Shown here: positions 28,127 through 36,362 of the stretch, in pieces | How positions within the stretch are numbered: position 1 is the first letter of the stretch | How the letters are laid out: each line of letters begins with the position of its first letter | Notes under the pieces: model-generated | What the model saw: the letters and a program-made list of their open reading frames with translations, nothing else | What the model was told of the DNA's origin: nothing | Databases searched by the model: none | Translations under genes and position numbers: made by a program | Source: Actinomycetales bacterium | GTDB lineage: Bacteria; Actinomycetota; Actinomycetes; Actinomycetales; Kineosporiaceae | Assembly: GCA_012719445.1 (NCBI GenBank) | Contig: JAAYAH010000083.1 | Span: 1-49,110, forward strand | Length of the DNA: 49,110 nucleotides | Reading direction: 5' to 3'

Positions 28127-29635
28127 ATGACCCGCTGGATCAGGTTCGGGCACGCCCGGACCGTGGTCGCCGTTCTCACGGCAGGCCTGGTGCTCGGCTC
28201 CGGCCTGAGCATGTCCGCACCAGCAACGGCCGCGGACGCCTCGACGAAGTACTTCGCGGCGTTCCGGGAGGCGACGCCCACGTCGATCGCTTCCCAGGTG
28301 ACCGCTCAGAACGGCATCGCTCCCGCGAGCGTCATGTGGTTCGACTCCTGGTCGACGAACAACGCGTTCCCCGTGTCCGAGGCCAAGGCCCTGTGGGCCC
28401 AGGGCATCCTCCCCCACTACACCTGGGAGCCCTGGAACCCCAGCCTCGGGGTCAGCGACACCGGACAGATCCACCTGCAGGACATCATCAACGGCAGCTG
28501 GGACAGCTACATCAGGGCGCGGGGTGCCGAGTTCGCCTCGGCCGGCGTGCCGCTCATGGTGCGCTGGGGCCACGAGTTCAACGGCAACTGGTACCCCTGG
28601 GGCATCGCCAACAACAGCAACAACCCGGCGCTCTACGTCAGTGCCTACCGCCACGTGCACGACGTCGTGACGGCGGCCGGTGCCACCAACGTGCAGTGGA
28701 TCTGGGCGTACAACAACGGCTCGTCCCCCAACGAGTCCTGGAACGACCCGGCGCGGGCCTACCCCGGTGACGCCTACGTCGACTGGGTCGGCATCGACGG
28801 CTACAACTGGGGCATCGCGCCGTCCTGGGACCCCTCCGGCAACTACTGGACCAGCTTCGACTCCATGATCTCCAGCGCCTACTCCCAGGCCCGCAGCATC
28901 GCCCCGCGGCGTCCGGTGACGGTCTCCGAGTTCGCCTCCACCGAGGACGGCGGCAACAAGGCCCAGTGGATGAACGAGATGAACTCCACGCTGGCCTCCG
29001 GCCGCTACCCCGACCTGAAGCTGCTGACCTACTTCGACATCAACAAGGAAGAGATGTGGTCGGCCGCCTCGTCGTCCGCCAGCCTCTCCGCCTTCCTCTC
29101 CTGGGTGAAGCAGCCGTACATGAACGGCAGGGGCAGCGACCTGGCCCAGGTGGCCGGTCAGTACAAGGGCACCACCACGACCACCACGACCACGACGCGG
29201 CCCACCACCACGACCACCACGACCACGACGCGGCCCACCACCACGACCACCACGACCACCACGCGGCCCACCACCACCACGACCACGACGACCACGACGC
29301 GGCCCACCACGACGACAACCACGACGACCTCCGGTGGTGGCCGGAGCTGCACGGCGGCGTACACCCTGAACAGCTCGTGGCCGGGCGGGTTCGTCGCGAA
29401 CATCACCGTGACCGCGGGTAGTTCTGCGATCAGCGGCTGGCGGGTCACCATGACCCTGCCGAGCGGCGCGTCGGTGAACAACCTGTGGAACGGCACCGCC
29501 TCCGGCACCACAGGCACCGTCACGGTCAGCAACGCCCCCTACAACGGCCAGCTGTCGGCCGGACAGTCGGCCTCGTTCGGCTTCGTCGGCGGCGGCACCG
29601 GCAGCGGCGCGACCGTCAGCTGCACCGTCGGCTGA
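28127..29635 (+). CDS. Secreted GH26 beta-mannanase with C-terminal CBM2
   Basis: 502 residues; ATG 28127 follows GGAGGAG. Signal peptide ~1-36 (TVVAVLTAGLVLGSGLSM...ATA). GH26 catalytic domain ~40-335 with acid/base Glu150 in RWGHEFNGNWYPW and nucleophile Glu268 in TVSEFAS; HYTWEPWNP is also typical. Expected activity is endo-1,4-beta-mannan hydrolysis, though some GH26 enzymes act on other beta-glucans. A linker of five Arg-Pro-separated poly-Thr blocks (~345-405) leads to a CBM2 (~407-502: SCTAAYTLNSSWPGGFVANI, SGWRVTMTLPSG, NAPYNG, SFGFVGGG, VSCTVG). Single-gene unit with cre-like operators upstream and a terminator downstream. Confidence 0.96.
   Translation: MTRWIRFGHARTVVAVLTAGLVLGSGLSMSAPATAADASTKYFAAFREATPTSIASQVTAQNGIAPASVMWFDSWSTNNAFPVSEAKALWAQGILPHYTWEPWNPSLGVSDTGQIHLQDIINGSWDSYIRARGAEFASAGVPLMVRWGHEFNGNWYPWGIANNSNNPALYVSAYRHVHDVVTAAGATNVQWIWAYNNGSSPNESWNDPARAYPGDAYVDWVGIDGYNWGIAPSWDPSGNYWTSFDSMISSAYSQARSIAPRRPVTVSEFASTEDGGNKAQWMNEMNSTLASGRYPDLKLLTYFDINKEEMWSAASSSASLSAFLSWVKQPYMNGRGSDLAQVAGQYKGTTTTTTTTTRPTTTTTTTTTRPTTTTTTTTTRPTTTTTTTTTTRPTTTTTTTTSGGGRSCTAAYTLNSSWPGGFVANITVTAGSSAISGWRVTMTLPSGASVNNLWNGTASGTTGTVTVSNAPYNGQLSAGQSASFGFVGGGTGSGATVSCTVG
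29170..29330 (+). repeat. Poly-Thr/Arg-Pro linker repeat in the mannanase
   Basis: Four CGGCCC (Arg-Pro) punctuation marks separate runs of eight to ten ACC/ACG Thr codons, spacing ~33-36 bases. Extended, probably O-glycosylated linker and a likely hot spot for length change. Confidence 0.9.
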
Positions 29636-29806: not shown

Positions 29807-30910
29807 GTGGTCGACGATGTCGCGATGGTCCCGCTGGAGCGGTTCGCCCGTCGCCTGCGGGACTGGCGCCGACGCTGCGGCCAGCCGTCGCTCCGGTCCC
29901 TGGAGGCCCTGACCGCGCAGGTCGGACGGCGCTACGCGCGGGCGACGATCGCCGCGGCGCTGGCTGCCAGGAGCCGACCCGACTGGACGTTCGTCGAGGT
30001 GTTCGTCCGCGCCTGCGCCCGGCACGGGGGGCGGACGACCGAGGCGGGAGGGCTGCCGGACCTGGGCGACTGGCAGCGGGCGCACCAGCAGCTGCTCTGG
30101 GACCTCAGCGCGAGCCTCGGGGACGGGCCGAGCCGTCGCCCCGCCGGGGCGCTGCGGTGCACGCTGCCGCCGTGCACCTCAGCGTTCACCGGCCGGGCCG
30201 GTCAGGTCGAGGCGGTACTCGCGGCCCTGGACCACGGGACCGGCGAGCGCGCCCCGGTGCGATGCGTCACCGTGCACGGACGGGCCGGGGTCGGCAAGAC
30301 CGCGTTCGCCGTCCAGCTCGCCCACCGGCTCCGGACCGGCTACCCCGACGGCCAGTTCTTCCTCGACCTCCACGGCAGCGACCCCGGTCGCCCGGCGACA
30401 CCGGCCACCGCGCTGGCGAGCCTGCTCGGGGGAACCGGCGACGACCCCGGCTCCCTGCCCGACGCCCTCGGACGTCGCACCGCCGCGTGGCGGGACCGGG
30501 TCCGCGACCGCCGGGTCCTCCTGGTCCTCGACGACGCCGCGAGCGCCGACCAGGTGATCCCCCTGCTCCCGACCGGCGCGTCGCTGACCCTGGTCACCAG
30601 CCGCGCTCCGGTGACCGGGCAGCTCCCGGCGACCCTTCCGGTGCCCCTGGACGCCCTGCCCCCGGCGGAGGCCGGGCAGTTGTTCCTTCGCCTCGCCCCG
30701 CACGTCGCCGCCGACCCGGAGGACGTCGCCGGGCTGGTGACGTTGTGCGGATGCCTCCCTTCGGCGATCTCACGCCTGGCCGGGCAGGCCGTCCGGCATC
30801 CCACCTGGACGATCGCCGAGCTCGCCGGTGAGGCCCGGTCAGCCGATCGCCGCGATCTCGGCGGCGAGCTCGGCGGCCTCGCCCGCTCCGATGCGCCGGA
30901 AGATCTCTGA
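29807..30910 (+). CDS. Truncated NB-ARC regulator lacking WHD/TPR half
   Basis: About 367 residues. GTG 29807 lies 7 bases after TAGGGT (29794-29799), consistent with a leaderless start. The N-terminal ~100 residues (CGQPSLRSLEALTAQVGRRY, SRPDWTFVEVFVRACARHGG) form the XRE-like domain of AfsR-type NB-ARC proteins. P-loop HGRAGVGKTAFAVQL is at ~155-170; kinase-2 RRVLLVLDD and GLP-like GCLPSAIS follow. Homology to the facing paralogue stops at GEAR, precisely where that gene's stop codon begins (30839). The last 24 residues are antisense to the paralogue's 3' end. The winged-helix and TPR parts are missing, so it is probably non-functional or a dominant-negative fragment. Confidence 0.8.
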   Translation: MVDDVAMVPLERFARRLRDWRRRCGQPSLRSLEALTAQVGRRYARATIAAALAARSRPDWTFVEVFVRACARHGGRTTEAGGLPDLGDWQRAHQQLLWDLSASLGDGPSRRPAGALRCTLPPCTSAFTGRAGQVEAVLAALDHGTGERAPVRCVTVHGRAGVGKTAFAVQLAHRLRTGYPDGQFFLDLHGSDPGRPATPATALASLLGGTGDDPGSLPDALGRRTAAWRDRVRDRRVLLVLDDAASADQVIPLLPTGASLTLVTSRAPVTGQLPATLPVPLDALPPAEAGQLFLRLAPHVAADPEDVAGLVTLCGCLPSAISRLAGQAVRHPTWTIAELAGEARSADRRDLGGELGGLARSDAPEDL

Positions 30911-33553
30911 TGCCTCGCCCAGCCTCCGGCGCGCCTCGACGAGGTCTCCGTCGGCGAGCGCGCACCGCCCCAGCCCGGCGAGGGCATGGGCCTGGTCCCA
31001 CGGGCTGTCCATCGTCCGGCAGACGCCGAGGGCCTGCTCGTGGCGGCGTCTCGCCTCCGCCACGTCCCCGCGGAGCCGCTGCGCCCACCCGAGGTCGTTG
31101 AGGGCGACCACCTCCCCGCCGCGGTCCCCCAGCTCGCGGTAGCCGGCCACGGCGGTCTCCAGGTCGCGCACCGCGTCCTCGTGCTCGCCCTCGAGGCACC
31201 GGACCGCCCCGAGGGCGGTGATGCTGTTCGCCCTGCCGAGCCGGTCGCCGAGGTCGGTGTAGAGCTCCAGCGCCCGCAGCAGTGCCCGACGGCTGTCCAC
31301 GTGCTCCCCCACTCTGCGGAGCACCGTGCCGAGGAAGAAGAGGACGTTGGCCTGGCCGCCCCGGTTCCCCAGGCCGACATGGAGCTCCAGGGCGCCGTCC
31401 AGGCACTCCCGCGCCCCCTGGTGGTCGCCGGTGAAGCGCCGGACGGCGCCCAGGTGGGTCAGGACGTTCGCCTCGCCGCCCCTGTTCCCGCAGCTCCGGT
31501 AGATCTCCAGTGCCTCGGCCAGGGCCGTCTCGGCCCCCGGGTAGTCCCCGCTCAGCCGGCGCAGGTCCCCGAGATCGGCGAGCACGTTCGCCCGGCCCAG
31601 CGGATCGTCCAGCCGCCGGTAGGCCGCAAGGGCACGGTCCAGCCGTTCCGCGGACGCGGCGTAGTCCCCGGTGACCAGCCGCACGTTGCCGATCAGGGCG
31701 AGGGCGTTGGCCTCGCCCCGCCCTTCGGCGACGTCCCGGTAGCCGGCCAGGGCCGCCGTCAGGGCCGCCACCGCGCCGTCGTAGTCACCCGCGAGACGCC
31801 GGACGGTCCCGAGCGCCGTCAGGGCGTTGGCCTCCTCGACACCGTCCCCGAGGGACCGGGCGAGATCGGCGGCGACGGCGTGCAGGGCCAGGGCCCGCGT
31901 CCAGGGACCGTCCAGCCGGAGGAGCTCGGTGAGCCCCGCCGTGAGCGCGAGGACCCGGCGTGGTTCCCGGGTGGTCCCGAGGCAGGAGAGCAGGTTGTCC
32001 CGCTCCGCCCGGAGCCAGGCGAGCGCCCGGTGGGCGTCGACGAGGTCGGGCAGCTCGACCCCTCGTCCCGGGACGGCGGCCCGCCCCGGTGCCGGTCGTG
32101 CCGGTCCCACCGGCCGGGTCTGCCGCGCGAGGCGAGCGTCCGCGACGGCGGCGGCCTGCTGGTAGTGGTCGAGCAGGCGGGCCTCGGCCGCCCGCCGCTC
32201 CGGCTCCGGGTCGGCGGCGACGAGCCGGCGCGCGAACGAGCGGATGAGGTCGTGCATGGCGTAGCGGCGGTAGCCGCGTTCCACCAGCAGGCGGTCGTCG
32301 TGCAGCGCGTCCAGGTGGTCGAGGACCTCAGCCACCGGGACGCCGACCAGCGCGGCCGCGGCGTACGGGTCGGTCTCGGTGCCCGGGTGCAGCGCCAACC
32401 GCCGGAAGAGCAGCCGTCGTTGCTCGGGGAGCCGACGGTAGGAGAGGTCGAACGCGGCCGCGACCGACCGGTCGTCGTCCGCAGGGACCGTCAGCAGCCG
32501 GGACCGGGCGTCACCGATCAGCTCGGACAGGTCGGCGTCGGGGTCCCTGGCCGCCAGCCGGGCCAGGAGGGAGATCGCCAGAGGCAGCCGCCCGCACACC
32601 TGCACCAGCTCGGCGACCCGGTGCCGCTGCCGGGTCACGTGCGGCGCCAGCCGCAGGAACAGCCGGACGGCCTCGTCGGCGGACAACACGTCCAGCTGCA
32701 CCGGCACGACGCTCACCGGCAGCCCGCCGAGGAACCGGCGACTGGTCACCAGGACCAGGCAGGCAGCTCCGCCGGGCAGCAGCAGCGGTGCGACCTGGTC
32801 CCCGTCGACGGCGTCGTCCAACACCAGGAGGACTCGCCGGCCCGCCATCCGGTCCCGCCAGGTCCGGACCCGTTCCTCCACGCCGTCGGGCAGGTGGCGA
32901 GGATCGAGCCCCTCGCCGACGAGCAGCGCCCCGAGGGCCTCCCCCGGGGAGACGGGGACGCGCCCCGGCGTGTGGGCGTGCAGGTCCAGGAACAGCTGAC
33001 CGTCGGGGAACCGCTCCCGCAGCAGGTTCGCGACGTGGATCGCGAGCGCGGTCTTGCCGACCCCGGGCATCCCGTCGATGGCGTGGATGGCCACGACCCC
33101 GCCTGCGCCGGCGATCTCCACCACCGATCGGGAGATCGCCTCCACCTGTTCCTGCCGGCCGACGAACAACCGGGGATCGGCGGCGGGCAGGGAGCAGCGG
33201 AGCGCCGTCGCGGCCTCCGTCGCCTGCCGCCGGCCCTCGCGCTGCTCACGCAGCTGCACCAGCATCTCCCGGTGGGCATGGCGCCACGGATCGAGGTCGA
33301 GGCGCTCGAGCTCCTCGGCCCGCAGGCCGCCGTGCAGCGCGCAGGCCCGGACGAACACCTCGACGAACTCCCAGTCGGGCCGGCTCCGGCCCGCGAGGAC
33401 GTCGGAGAGCGAGGAGCGCCCGTACCGCCAGCCCACGCGCTCGGTCAGTGCCTCGAGGGTACGCAGGGAGGGGTTGCCCGCCTGCTCACGGCAGGCACGC
33501 AACCGGGCGGCGAGACCGGCGGCCTCTCCGGACGGCACCGGGTCCGCACTCAC
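30839..33553 (-). CDS. NB-ARC/TPR signal-transduction ATPase (AfsR-like, no SARP domain)
   Basis: About 904 residues from GTG 33553 (33559 possible). XRE-like N-terminal domain ~10-100 (GNPSLRTLEALTERVGWRYG, SRPDWEFVEVFVRACALHGG). NB-ARC: P-loop GMPGVGKTALAIH at 161-173, RRVLLVLDDAVDGDQV, VLVTSRRFLGGL, GRLPLAISLL. Winged-helix region ~350-450 contains MHD (RYAMHDLIRSF). TPR repeats from ~500 to the C-terminus have periodic ANALTALGTVRRLAGDYDGA-type motifs, about nine of them. STAND-family switch proteins of this type couple ligand sensing to regulation; the target is unknown. The frame is open upstream, but that stretch shadows the HEAT-EF-Ts gene. Convergent, 72-base overlap with the truncated paralogue. 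Confidence 0.93.
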   Translation of the reverse strand: MSADPVPSGEAAGLAARLRACREQAGNPSLRTLEALTERVGWRYGRSSLSDVLAGRSRPDWEFVEVFVRACALHGGLRAEELERLDLDPWRHAHREMLVQLREQREGRRQATEAATALRCSLPAADPRLFVGRQEQVEAISRSVVEIAGAGGVVAIHAIDGMPGVGKTALAIHVANLLRERFPDGQLFLDLHAHTPGRVPVSPGEALGALLVGEGLDPRHLPDGVEERVRTWRDRMAGRRVLLVLDDAVDGDQVAPLLLPGGAACLVLVTSRRFLGGLPVSVVPVQLDVLSADEAVRLFLRLAPHVTRQRHRVAELVQVCGRLPLAISLLARLAARDPDADLSELIGDARSRLLTVPADDDRSVAAAFDLSYRRLPEQRRLLFRRLALHPGTETDPYAAAALVGVPVAEVLDHLDALHDDRLLVERGYRRYAMHDLIRSFARRLVAADPEPERRAAEARLLDHYQQAAAVADARLARQTRPVGPARPAPGRAAVPGRGVELPDLVDAHRALAWLRAERDNLLSCLGTTREPRRVLALTAGLTELLRLDGPWTRALALHAVAADLARSLGDGVEEANALTALGTVRRLAGDYDGAVAALTAALAGYRDVAEGRGEANALALIGNVRLVTGDYAASAERLDRALAAYRRLDDPLGRANVLADLGDLRRLSGDYPGAETALAEALEIYRSCGNRGGEANVLTHLGAVRRFTGDHQGARECLDGALELHVGLGNRGGQANVLFFLGTVLRRVGEHVDSRRALLRALELYTDLGDRLGRANSITALGAVRCLEGEHEDAVRDLETAVAGYRELGDRGGEVVALNDLGWAQRLRGDVAEARRRHEQALGVCRTMDSPWDQAHALAGLGRCALADGDLVEARRRLGEASEIFRRIGAGEAAELAAEIAAIG

Positions 33554-33608: not shown

Positions 33609-33639
33609 TTGAACCTCTCGCTGGGTGAGGTCCTAGCGT
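33609..33639 (+). promoter_or_regulatory. MerR-type promoter: TTGAAC-N19-TAGCGT with spacer dyad
   Basis: -35 TTGAAC (33609-33614) and -10 TAGCGT (33634-33639) are separated by 19 bases, the abnormal spacing typical of MerR-activated promoters. A dyad ACCTC-N9-GAGGT (33613-33631) fills the spacer. The ATG at 33648 lies 8 bases after the -10, suggesting a leaderless mRNA. A MerR-family gene (36285-35179) belongs to the same locus. Confidence 0.65.
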
Positions 33640-33647
33640 CCACCGGC

Positions 33648-35243
33648 ATGGACACGACGAGCCCCCTGATCGCAGGCCACCCGGACGAGGACGCTGAGCA
33701 GGCGCTGCTCCAGCTCGACCTGCTGGACGACGTCGACCCGAACGTCCGGCTGCAGGCGGCACTCGACCTCGGCAGACGGCAGGTGGCGACGGCCGCGCAG
33801 ACCCTGGTGGATCGGCTCGGCACCGAGCGGGAGTTCCTGGTCCGGGAGGCCCTCACCTGGGCGGTGCTGCGGATCGCCGACGACGCGATGCCGTTCGTGC
33901 ACCAGGCGCTGTCGAGCGGACGCTGGCTGGCCAGGGTGCAGGCAGCGCACGTCGTGGGCAAGCTGGGCCGCCGCACCGACGCCGGACGGCTGGTCGCCCT
34001 GATCGGCGACGAGGTGGACGCCGTGGCCGCCAGGGCGTACCAGGCCGCGGCGCGGACCGGCGACCCCGTCGTCGTCCCGGCTCTCGTCACCCAGTTGTCC
34101 CGCGGAGGGCCGGAGCACCAGGACACGCTCACGAGGGCTCTCGCGGCCTTCGGGGAGGCCGCCGTGCCCGCGCTCGTCGACGCCCTGCGCACCGGGCCGG
34201 GCCCGGGGGCGCGACGTCATGCCGCGGACATCCTCGGGCTCCTGGGATCGCCCCCGGCCGACCGGGCGGCGCTCCCCCTCGCCGAGGCGCTGGACGACGG
34301 GGACCGGGAGGTCCGGCTGGCCGCGCTCAACGCGCTCGGCCAACTGCGACTCCCCTTCGCCGACCGGACGGTGGACAGGGCCACCGGATCCGCGGACCCG
34401 CTGCTGCGCCACCTGGCTCGCCGGCTCGCCGACCGCAGGTCGACGGGTGCCCCGGCGACCCGGCTCCGACCGTCGACCACCCGGCCCGTCACCCCGACGG
34501 TCACCACGGACCCGGACGGTGACACCCCGTGCGGGATGATCGCCACGGCCCCCGGGGTGCTGGTCGAGCTCACCTGCGAGACGACCGTCGTCGCCGCGGG
34601 CAGGACCTTCCGCGAGCTGGGCCGGCTCCTCGCCGACCTCGCGGCGGCCACCCCGGACGCCGGAGCGGAGGACCTGCCCGACGTCCGGCTCCCCAGGGCG
34701 CCGCACGGTGGGCGTCCGGTGGCGACGGTGGACGGCGAGACCCTGCGCGACCTCCTCGTCGCGGTGTCGTCGGCGTCTGGCGAGCGGATCGGCGTCGGCC
34801 GGGTCGCCCGCCTGCCCGGACGCACGGTGTCGCACCTGGCCCGCACCCGGTCGGGGCTGCCGCCGCAGCTCGGTGCCCTGGTCGGCGTCGACGGCGGCCG
34901 GGCGGCCGAGGAGCTCGCCACCCCGATCGCCCGCCACGTGGCGACGGCGGCGCCGCGGTACCTGAGCAGGGACGACATCCCCGCCGACGTCCTGGCAACG
35001 GTGCGTACCCGGGCCGAGGAGCTGGCCAGAGCCCAGGGCACGCCCGAGGCGATCCGGCCGCGGGTCGTCGCCGGGAGGGCGGAGCGCTTCGTCCACGACA
35101 CGGTCCTGCTGGAGCAGGTCAGCGTCCTGGACGCCGGTCAGACGATCGCCGGCCTGCTGTACGGCACCGGCGTCCACCTCACCGGCTTCGCCCGGCTGGA
35201 GGTGGGGTCCGGTCGGCGGTCAGGCGCAGCGCCAGGGCTCTGA
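33648..35243 (+). CDS. HEAT-repeat/EF-Ts fusion protein
   Basis: 531 residues, leaderless ATG 33648. Residues ~20-265 are HEAT repeats (DPNVRLQAALDLG, FLVREALTWAVLRIADDAMP, AFGEAAVPALVDAL, DREVRLAALNALGQL). After a Thr/Pro hinge (~266-293), residues ~294-520 follow elongation factor Ts: GVLVELTCETTVVAAGRTF corresponds to GVLVEVNCETDFVA; then RIGVGRVARLPG, LATPIARHVATAAPRYLSRD, DIPADVLATVRTRAEE, VVAGRAERFVHDTVLLEQ and FARLEVG. The N-terminal UBA-like EF-Tu-binding domain of true EF-Ts is absent, and the TDFV motif that perturbs the EF-Tu nucleotide site is TTVV. It cannot simply be the housekeeping EF-Ts; an EF-Tu-binding effector is inferred. Its 3' end overlaps the MerR-HEAT gene by 65 bases. 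Confidence 0.88.
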   Translation: MDTTSPLIAGHPDEDAEQALLQLDLLDDVDPNVRLQAALDLGRRQVATAAQTLVDRLGTEREFLVREALTWAVLRIADDAMPFVHQALSSGRWLARVQAAHVVGKLGRRTDAGRLVALIGDEVDAVAARAYQAAARTGDPVVVPALVTQLSRGGPEHQDTLTRALAAFGEAAVPALVDALRTGPGPGARRHAADILGLLGSPPADRAALPLAEALDDGDREVRLAALNALGQLRLPFADRTVDRATGSADPLLRHLARRLADRRSTGAPATRLRPSTTRPVTPTVTTDPDGDTPCGMIATAPGVLVELTCETTVVAAGRTFRELGRLLADLAAATPDAGAEDLPDVRLPRAPHGGRPVATVDGETLRDLLVAVSSASGERIGVGRVARLPGRTVSHLARTRSGLPPQLGALVGVDGGRAAEELATPIARHVATAAPRYLSRDDIPADVLATVRTRAEELARAQGTPEAIRPRVVAGRAERFVHDTVLLEQVSVLDAGQTIAGLLYGTGVHLTGFARLEVGSGRRSGAAPGL

Positions 35244-36285
35244 TCCGCGGCTCCTCCGACGCGGCCGCGCCACGGATCGCGGCGTCCGCCTGCTCGCCCT
35301 CCAGACGGCCGAGGGCGAGCAGGGCCGCGAGCCGGACACCGGGGTCCGCGTCGGCGAGGGCCGCGGCCAGGGCCGGTGCGGACCCCGCACCGGCGACGAA
35401 GCCGAGGACCTCCGCCGCGTGCTCGCGGACGTCCCGGTCCCCGGCCGCCAGGGCCTCGGTGAGCGGACCGACCGCCTGCTCGCCGAAGCAGGCGATCGCG
35501 TCGCCGAGGCTGTCCCGTCCCGAGTCCGGGTCCCGGCCCAGCCGCCCGACCAGCGCGGCGAGCGCGTCCGGACCACCGATGCGGCCCAGCGCGAACGCCG
35601 CGGACGAGACGACCTCCCGGTCGGCGTCGTCGAGCAGCCCGACCAGGGCCGGGACGGCACGCGCGTCGGCGAGCTTGGCGAGCACGATCGACATCCGGAC
35701 GCGCACCGCGGGATCCGGCTCGACGAGGTGCTCGACGACGAGCGGGACGGCGTCCGGCCCCTGCTGGACGACGGCCCAGGCGAGGACGTCCTGGACGGCG
35801 GGATCGGGCTCGGCGGCGAGGTTGGCCACCAGCAGGGCGAGCGGCGCCGCCGTCGGCGCGTCGAGGGCGGCCCGCAGCCGGACGGCCGACTCCCGGTGGC
35901 CCAGCCGCTCGGTCAGGGCGACGAGGGCGAGGACCTCCTCCCAGCCGGAGTCGGCGGCGTCGCGGAGGCTGCGCAGCCGTCCGAGCAGTTCGTGCTCCGC
36001 GGCGAGCCGCTGCTCGACCAGCGCGATGTGCGCCGCCAACGTGTCCGCGGCGTCGAACGCGGGGTCGTCGAGAGCCGCCCCGACCTCGGCGAGGCTCAGT
36101 CCGAGGGATCTCAGCTGCTGGACGGCCAGCAGCCTGCGGACGTCCTCGGCCGAGTAGAGCCGGTGGTCGCCGTGGGTCCTGTCGCTCGGCACGAGCAGCC
36201 CGAGGTCGTCGTAGTGACGCAGGGTCCGCACGGTGAGGCCGCTCCTGCGGGCCACCTCGCCGATCCTGAGCGACGCCTCCGGCAC
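35179..36285 (-). CDS. MerR-family regulator with C-terminal HEAT-repeat domain
   Basis: 368 residues from GTG 36285 (GTGAGG just upstream). MerR winged HTH ~5-75 (LRIGEVARRSGLTVRTLRHY, YSAEDVRRLLAVQQLRSLG), then a helical dimerisation arm ~80-135. Instead of a small ligand pocket it carries ~200 residues of HEAT repeats (AWAVVQQGPDAVPLVVEHL, DADREVVSSAAFALGRIG, ACFGEQAVGPLTEALAAGDR, DADPGVRLAALLALGRL). These align repeat by repeat with the HEAT part of the facing EF-Ts fusion. It is the probable regulator of the MerR-type promoter at 33609. HEAT-HEAT contact between the two proteins could be the sensing step (inference). Divergent from the flavin monooxygenase operon. Confidence 0.9.
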   Translation of the reverse strand: MPEASLRIGEVARRSGLTVRTLRHYDDLGLLVPSDRTHGDHRLYSAEDVRRLLAVQQLRSLGLSLAEVGAALDDPAFDAADTLAAHIALVEQRLAAEHELLGRLRSLRDAADSGWEEVLALVALTERLGHRESAVRLRAALDAPTAAPLALLVANLAAEPDPAVQDVLAWAVVQQGPDAVPLVVEHLVEPDPAVRVRMSIVLAKLADARAVPALVGLLDDADREVVSSAAFALGRIGGPDALAALVGRLGRDPDSGRDSLGDAIACFGEQAVGPLTEALAAGDRDVREHAAEVLGFVAGAGSAPALAAALADADPGVRLAALLALGRLEGEQADAAIRGAAASEEPRIRALALRLTADRTPPPAGRSR

Positions 36286-36342: not shown

Positions 36343-36362
36343 ATAGTTGAGCCGTCAACCAT
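36343..36362. promoter_or_regulatory. Inverted repeat ATaGTTGA-N4-TCAACcAT
   Basis: GTTGA/TCAAC arms are perfect around GCCG, with outer AT/AT, 12 bases before the ATG of the monooxygenase. MarR/HxlR-type regulators commonly bind such AGTTGA...TCAACT sites. It lies between the divergent MerR-HEAT and monooxygenase genes and could serve either. Confidence 0.55.

Follow-up and report, generated by a model that had tools for sequence, protein, structure and literature searches.

The locus described here raises two questions: what switches on a gene whose product joins HEAT repeats to an EF-Ts domain, and what such a product might be for. The gene lies on the plus strand of a 49,110-nucleotide stretch of DNA (the window). 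The evidence presented below makes it likely that the promoter of this gene is switched by a MerR-HEAT regulator encoded beside it, that the promoter drives a HEAT-pseudo-EF-Ts protein, and that the system is a diverged relative of an actinobacterial HEAT/MerR-HEAT module.

The predicted promoter and its gene pair

The HEAT-EF-Ts gene (33648..35243, plus strand) encodes a protein of 531 amino acids, with HEAT repeats at approximately residues 24-260 and a degenerate EF-Ts domain at residues 303-520. This architecture, which had been proposed in the first-pass annotation of the sequence, is borne out by Pfam, with matches to HEAT_2 (3.5e-21) and EF_TS (5.5e-31; 108 bits against a cut-off of 27). 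Converging on it from the minus strand, and overlapping its 3' end by 65 bp, is the gene for the MerR-HEAT regulator (35179..36285; 368 amino acids). The regulator has an N-terminal MerR helix-turn-helix and a dimerisation helix, and its C-terminal part consists of HEAT repeats; the corresponding Pfam matches are MerR_1 (1.8e-19), MerR-DNA-bind (4.4e-6) and HEAT_2 (1.4e-29). The HEAT domains of the two proteins are related to each other (36% over 135 residues).

Upstream of the HEAT-EF-Ts gene, and on the same strand, a -35 element TTGAAC (33609..33614) and a -10 element TAGCGT (33634..33639) are separated by a spacer of 19 bp (33615..33633). The putative operator is the dyad ACCTC-N9-GAGGT (33613-33631), whose left arm (33613..33617) overlaps the final two bases of the -35 and whose right arm is found at 33627..33631. 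When the columns of the 31-base promoter are counted from the first T of the -35, the dyad is centred on column 14, and seven of the nine symmetric positions around that centre are paired. The ATG (33648-33650) is situated eight bases downstream of the -10. All of these elements had been pointed out in the first reading of the sequence, and every base was confirmed at its position. The MerR-type geometry attributed to them was upheld as well. The 19-bp spacing, with a dyad inside the spacer and centred approximately 2 bp toward the -35, is conserved in a second genus of the family (G005, described below), where seven of the nine symmetric positions are likewise paired. In the mer promoter, as presented in an excerpt of PMC11049809, both the symmetrical sequence and the spacer begin at -31, the former ending at -16 and the latter at -13, coordinates that would place the dyad centre at column 14.5, as compared with column 14 in the window. 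Since the spacer length and the off-centre dyad are both as in the mer promoter, 33609-33639 is taken to be a MerR-type promoter, and its binding and activation by a MerR protein are predicted.

The same convergent gene pair is present in G005, with proteins that are 56% and 65% identical to those of the window. Its HEAT-EF-Ts gene is preceded by the promoter TTGAACCTCTCACCGCGTGAGGTTCTAGCGT, which agrees with that of the window at 27 of 31 bases; the -35 hexamer, the length of the spacer, both arms of the dyad and the -10 are all the same. It is apparent that this agreement does not extend into the surroundings. Only 14 of the 40 bases upstream of the promoter agree, the gene that lies upstream encodes a histidine kinase in G005 (by eye) and an NB-ARC/TPR regulator in the window, and the distance from the -35 to the start codon is 39 bases in the window, as against 43 and 52 for the possible starts in G005. 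No reading frame across the promoter is preserved between the two, so the conservation of the promoter is not that of a coding sequence.

Among 11 other genomes of the family, 10 had no MerR-HEAT match at E<=1e-15, and one had a short match to the MerR domain only. Genome contigs were also scanned for the HEAT part of the fusion with two peptide patterns, a procedure that possibly left out records of the window's own genome. One of 506 candidate stretches was confirmed, JAUPKQ010000033.1 (an Actinomycetota bin), which is taken to be the G005 contig. As the fused pair with its promoter was found in only two genomes, it represents one evolutionary event and not many.

The chance expectation of the promoter pattern was estimated in the window, in whole genomes and across the order. 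With up to three mismatches, TTGAACCTCN9GAGGTNCTAGCGT has one match in the window and none in any of 100 shuffles. Under a loose rule (TTGNNN-N19-TANNNT with a contiguous dyad arm of at least 5), the promoter at 33609 is the sole match in the window; 200 simulated windows gave a mean of 0.02, and one site was reached in 4 of them. Across the order, TTGAMCCTC-N9-GAGGTNNTANNNT was matched twice in 297 genomes, both times upstream of a HEAT-EF-Ts gene that is convergent with a MerR-HEAT gene, and the reversed control of TTGAMCCTCN9GAGGTNNTANNNT had no match in the same 297 genomes. When three mismatches were allowed in the window's own genome, one further site was found, upstream of a TipAL-like MerR gene. 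The short dyad core occurs at 40 sites per strand in that genome, compared with 27 for its reversed control, and at 28 sites in G005, compared with 24. The significance belongs to the whole promoter; the dyad core, being common, is unconvincing alone.

The first-pass annotation had also described the HEAT-EF-Ts gene as leaderless. For the window this is plausible: the ATG stands where the RNA would begin, and the spacing would allow a leaderless mRNA or a leader of one or two bases. It is not, however, a conserved trait. In G005, GGAGG and an ATG are found further downstream of the promoter, and 71 of the 72 unfused relatives introduced below have a Shine-Dalgarno-like run within 44 bases past the -10 (by a permissive test), the exception being L037, whose ATG comes six bases downstream of the -10. 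If the window gene is in fact leaderless, that is peculiar to this locus and does not belong to the mechanism.

Several further features of the region were recorded. The divergent neighbour of the promoter, the NB-ARC/TPR regulator gene (30839..33553, minus strand; start 55 bp from the -35), is outside the system; its product resembles HaaT of cyclophane-RiPP clusters and AfsR, with scores under both cut-offs. A frame of 502 residues at 28127-29635 (plus strand) contains a long linker rich in threonine, built of repeating TTTTTTT-RP units, and would, by eye, encode a secreted protein. Between the MerR-HEAT gene and the divergent gene for a CE1758-family luciferase-like monooxygenase (36375, plus strand) there is a dyad, GTTGA-GCCG-TCAAC (36346-36359), which is possibly the operator of some other regulator. 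As a MerR operator for the MerR-HEAT gene itself, CTCAC-N8-GTGAG, noticed by eye just before the start codon, was considered and rejected; it has no counterpart in G005. The convergent 3' overlap measures 65 bp in the window (35179-35243) and 46 bp in G005 (L004:1516-1561), and antisense coupling of the two genes through it is possible.

The unfused module and the reader of the operator

Full-length MerR-HEAT proteins were found in 72 genomes besides G000 and G005, namely in 7 of 58 relatives and in 65 more of 394 genomes of the class. The class survey itself yielded 91 genomes over threshold, of which 67, including G000 and G025, had full-length matches; the 24 with N-terminal matches only were excluded. 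With the five best candidates of each genome scored, the number of sampled class genomes that carry the two-gene module is at least 67 of 394 (the window's own included). The 72 pairs, in which the HEAT protein is not fused to EF-Ts, are not independent of one another, many of them being from one genus; ten families are represented, and the counts are lower bounds.

The two genes share a strand in all 72 pairs, the HEAT gene coming first and the gap between them ranging from -14 to 162 bases, and in every pair the HEAT gene is preceded by a related MerR-type promoter. The sequence T....T occurs exactly 19 bp from the -35 in 71 of these promoters, and at 15-18 bp in none of the 72. A strict search recovered TTGACC together with the left half-site in 65 pairs. 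The remaining seven have a changed -35 (TTTACC four times, and TTGCCC, TTGACA and TTGACT once each), which was read from the upstream sequence and its position verified. A typical unfused promoter resembles TTGACCTTGACACGGTGACAAGGTCTTCACT. Around column 14, at least seven of the nine dyad positions are paired in 55 promoters, six in 13, five in three and four in one. Shuffled spacers gave a mean of 2.3 of 9 paired positions, and for 71 of the 72 promoters the pairing is best when centred on column 14. A MerR-type promoter before the HEAT gene is accordingly an old feature of the module.

The relationship of the window proteins to this module was assessed with two HEAT models derived from it, which sort 144 of 144 of their own training sequences correctly (a lenient control). 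The HEAT part of the window HEAT-EF-Ts scores 106 bits with the model of the partner HEAT proteins, compared with 47 for that of the MerR-HEAT repeats. The HEAT part of the window MerR-HEAT scores 80 bits with the former and 86 with the latter, and on this measure it belongs to the family only distantly. Plasmids have MerR-HEAT homologs of the unfused type as well (20 records), and the annotations given to plasmid copies of the pair go no further than 'HEAT repeat domain-containing protein' or 'MerR family transcriptional regulator'. A search of plasmids with HEAT-EF-Ts returned 33 records, none of them covering 80% of the protein; among the 10 shown, either HEAT or EF-Ts was matched alone.

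The gene neighbours of the module give no function for it, since no conserved third gene was found among the 722 reading frames flanking the 72 unfused pairs (up to approximately 1.5 kb on each side), the largest cluster comprising 5 loci. In the open-access literature searched, no description of a HEAT/MerR-HEAT module was recognised. HEAT repeat, MerR and EF-Ts occurred there jointly only in work on yeast eEF3, and no article was found that joins HEAT repeat, EF-Ts and actinobacteria, or HEAT repeats and an EF-Ts domain. Ccr1 of Streptomyces was considered as a precedent for the combination of HEAT and MerR and was set aside, the excerpted text of PMC11272600 being concerned with a different protein.

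Recognition helices and operators were then compared. The helix of the unfused regulators reads RML in 71 of 72 and RVL in one, and 65 of the 72 operators match TT[GC][ACT]CA[CT] at columns 7-13; none of the 72 has CTC at columns 7-9 together with GAG at columns 19-21. The regulators of the fused branch (window and G005), in contrast, have the helix VRTL, and their operators have CTC and GAG at those columns. Recognition helix and operator have thus changed together in the fused lineage, a co-change that favours MerR-HEAT, on balance, as the reader of the new operator. In metal-responsive MerR proteins, according to an excerpt of PMC5045206, 23 of 32 protein-DNA correlations fall in the recognition helix, with the strongest at its second residue. 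By our own alignment, this residue is V19 in the window MerR-HEAT; the 72 unfused regulators have A there in 51 cases, T in 14, S in four, P in two and V in one. The V alone does not explain the change of operator, since L120, which has it, retains RML and an operator of the unfused type. Assignment of MerR-HEAT to a metal-sensing family was tried and rejected, as its scores fall well short of what the CueR, CadR-PbrR, ZntR and MerR models require.

The link between MerR-HEAT and the EF-Ts fusion that had been suggested at the outset has thereby gained in substance: the pair and its promoter are kept in G005, related promoters precede the HEAT gene in all 72 unfused pairs, and helix and operator differ from theirs in concert. 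Taken together, the conserved pair, the promoter geometry and the co-change make control of the HEAT-EF-Ts promoter by MerR-HEAT well supported by sequence. The best rival is a TipAL-like protein, since the VRTL helix and the CTC/GAG operator are common to TipAL-like loci also. The promoter would in that case belong to a TipAL-like regulator encoded elsewhere, HEAT-EF-Ts would be part of a thiopeptide or multidrug regulon, and MerR-HEAT would control something else. Nine TipAL-like regulators were scored, eight with the helix VRTL and one with VRAL. At four of these nine loci (L133, L138, L141 and L144) the operator has exactly the layout found in the window, TTG-N3-CTC-N9-GAG, and three others (L134, L135 and L142) have the variants CTG..GAG, CTC..GAC and CTC..CAG; for L136 and L137 the printed stretch ends short of the operator, and these figures refer to the nine of 21 loci that were caught by the helix pattern. 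The window's own genome has two TipAL-like genes, one of which, on contig C71, is preceded by a promoter similar to that of the window, TTGACCCTCACGCAGGGTGAGCCCCTAGCGT; its -10 is identical and its CTC and GAG occupy identical columns, so that cross-regulation is conceivable. The S. lividans tipA promoter is presumably similar as well. In G005, however, the operator is retained although no TipAL-like gene was found at E<=1e-40 in a genome that is 96% complete; the regulator adjoining the promoter in both genera is MerR-HEAT and not a TipAL-like protein; and the recognition helix of MerR-HEAT is itself VRTL, as in the TipAL-like proteins, rather than RML. We regard ownership of the promoter by a TipAL-like regulator as unlikely.

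It would be more surprising still if 33609-33639 were an ordinary sigma-70 promoter in which the dyad is fortuitous, or were controlled by an unrelated protein. Palindrome cores of similar size do occur elsewhere in the genome, and with the start of the divergent gene so close to the -35 the region could serve several proteins. Against this, G005 retains both the dyad and the 19-bp spacing despite different flanks, the geometry recurs in 71 of the 72 relatives, and the reversed pattern had no matches; we consider such an explanation very improbable. Control by MerR-HEAT is the reading adopted in what follows.

The EF-Ts domain of the fusion

The window's own genome has an ordinary tsf gene as well, on another contig. 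The score of HEAT-EF-Ts with the tsf equivalog model is 91.4, below the cut-off of 104.05, and a UBA-like N-terminal domain was not found in the protein by Pfam. The motif TDFV, present in all 27 canonical EF-Ts sequences that reach the region, is replaced by TTVV in the window fusion and by SEVI in that of G005, and the His of YLH, present in 29 of 29 canonical sequences, is replaced by Ala and Val, respectively. Counted along the alignment with 1efu_B, the replacements fall on E. coli residues Asp80, Phe81 and His147. Canonical EF-Ts has 41 near-invariant columns; both fusions depart from it at 10 of these and one of the fusions at a further 10; single canonical sequences have between 0 and 5 columns changed, the gap-shortened rows L024 and L027 showing 14 and 12. 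In an EF_TS tree of the C-terminal half (unrooted, and with one long row), six fused domains are split from 29 canonical domains by a 100/99 branch.

The scaffold has thus been kept by selection and the exchange centre lost, and it is on this ground that the EF-Ts part is read as a docking domain. It is probably a docking module and not an exchange factor, and the partner on which the pseudo-EF-Ts docks is probably EF-Tu or another translation component. HEAT-EF-Ts might instead still be a working nucleotide exchange factor, i.e. a stress-induced second EF-Ts, and it is consistent with this that Pfam finds a full-length EF_TS domain in both the window and G005, aligning over both subdomains. 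Such a role is doubtful, given the score below the equivalog cut-off, the replacements at Asp80, Phe81 and His147 in both fusions, and the existence in another class of HEAT-EF-Ts relatives without the N-terminal EF-Ts subdomain. The docking role remains the preferred one. Structure prediction of HEAT-EF-Ts, from a two-row alignment, gave a mean pLDDT of 46.5, too poor to use; that of MerR-HEAT gave a pLDDT of 75.9, and as the PDB entries that match it best are artificial alpha-Rep HEAT scaffolds, the model indicates only a HEAT fold.

The relatives in question were found in 4 of 66 genomes of another class of the phylum. They are 47-52% identical to the window protein (three aligned), and what they retain of the EF_TS model is its C-terminal part alone, beginning at position 104-109 (three scanned, the fourth by eye). 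Full-length MerR-HEAT was not found in those four genomes at E<=1e-10, the matches being MerR domains alone or HEAT-EF-Ts, and in the three upstream stretches that were read there was neither a MerR-HEAT neighbour nor a recognisable MerR promoter. HEAT-EF-Ts can therefore exist without the MerR-HEAT switch, and the branch to which the window belongs may have put an older effector under its control. In one of them, G886 (L155:1007-1477), the gene for a small HTH_17 protein ends two bases before a HEAT-EF-Ts gene with the C-terminal half of EF-Ts only, so that an effector of this kind has another type of regulator as its neighbour there.

Proposed mechanism and relation to known systems

In the mechanism proposed, a MerR-HEAT dimer would bind ACCTC-N9-GAGGT within the over-long 19-bp spacer and hold the promoter idle. 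A signal read by the HEAT domain of MerR-HEAT would cause the spacer to be untwisted, whereupon RNA polymerase would start at approximately 33645-33648 and HEAT-EF-Ts would be made, perhaps without a leader. The pseudo-EF-Ts of this HEAT effector would then dock on EF-Tu or another translation component, without nucleotide exchange. Binding by MerR-HEAT, activation by twisting and the start of transcription are what we infer from the arrangement of the locus; the signal and the target of the effector are speculative. As the HEAT domains of sensor and effector are paralogous, the two may see the same ligand or partner. With operator, regulator and expected start named to the base, the system is directly testable.

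A hint of drug sensing is provided by two Deinococcus plasmid proteins, P0006 and P0007 (genes L159:2233-3777 and L160:2233-3765), in which MerR, TipAS and HEAT are combined in one chain. The MerR domain of P0006 is 51% identical to that of the window MerR-HEAT, the HEAT repeats of the two proteins are 41-42% identical to those of the window HEAT-EF-Ts, and their TipAS domains, with 25.0 and 37.7 bits, pass the cut-off of 23.8. A TipAS domain is also present in the TipAL-like protein P0005 of the window's own genome; by Pfam, it is absent from the window HEAT-EF-Ts and MerR-HEAT, and it is absent from the one unfused regulator scanned (L068). By eye, the Deinococcus genes start behind TTGACT-N19-TACNGT.

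As stated in an excerpt of PMC3917276, TipAS sequesters thiopeptides, and thiopeptides with a 29-membered ring bind EF-Tu. These facts and the Deinococcus chains lead together to a ligand-trap reading, in which HEAT-EF-Ts would be an antibiotic- or toxin-induced shield of EF-Tu, its HEAT repeats trapping the ligand that MerR-HEAT senses and its dead EF-Ts tethering the trap to EF-Tu. The proposal is offered tentatively, and we think it unlikely to hold. If true, it would describe a TipAS-like trap, made by duplication of a sensor and delivered to the drug's own target, EF-Tu. In more general terms, the putative MerR-HEAT switch, with an over-long promoter of the type found with drug and metal sensors, and its effector suggest that translation is the target of a stress or antibiotic response that has yet to be characterised. 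The module to which they are related is common in the actinobacterial class sampled and, as far as the open-access literature was searched, undescribed; that one lineage has joined its effector to an EF-Ts apparently unable to work as such would be a first clue to the module's target.

Among known systems, the metal-responsive promoters of MerR, CueR and CadR share with the window promoter an over-long spacer (19-20 bp) with a palindrome within it, according to excerpts of PMC11049809 and PMC1526738. With canonical EF-Ts (tsf), the fusion has the EF_TS domain in common, and differs from it in its HEAT repeats and in the replacement of catalytic residues. The unfused HEAT/MerR-HEAT pairs resemble the window pair in having paralogous HEAT domains in sensor and effector and a MerR-type promoter before the HEAT gene; unlike those pairs, the window genes converge, the HEAT protein carries EF-Ts, and there are differences in the half-site of the operator, in the -10 and in the recognition helix. 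The TipAL/TipAS regulators, at the loci scored, are like that of the window in their VRTL-type helix and in a CTC-N9-GAG operator within a 19-bp spacer. They are also like it in their logic, a copy of the sensor domain being made from the controlled promoter (for TipAS, as excerpted from PMC3917276); unlike them, the window proteins have no TipAS domain and carry HEAT repeats.
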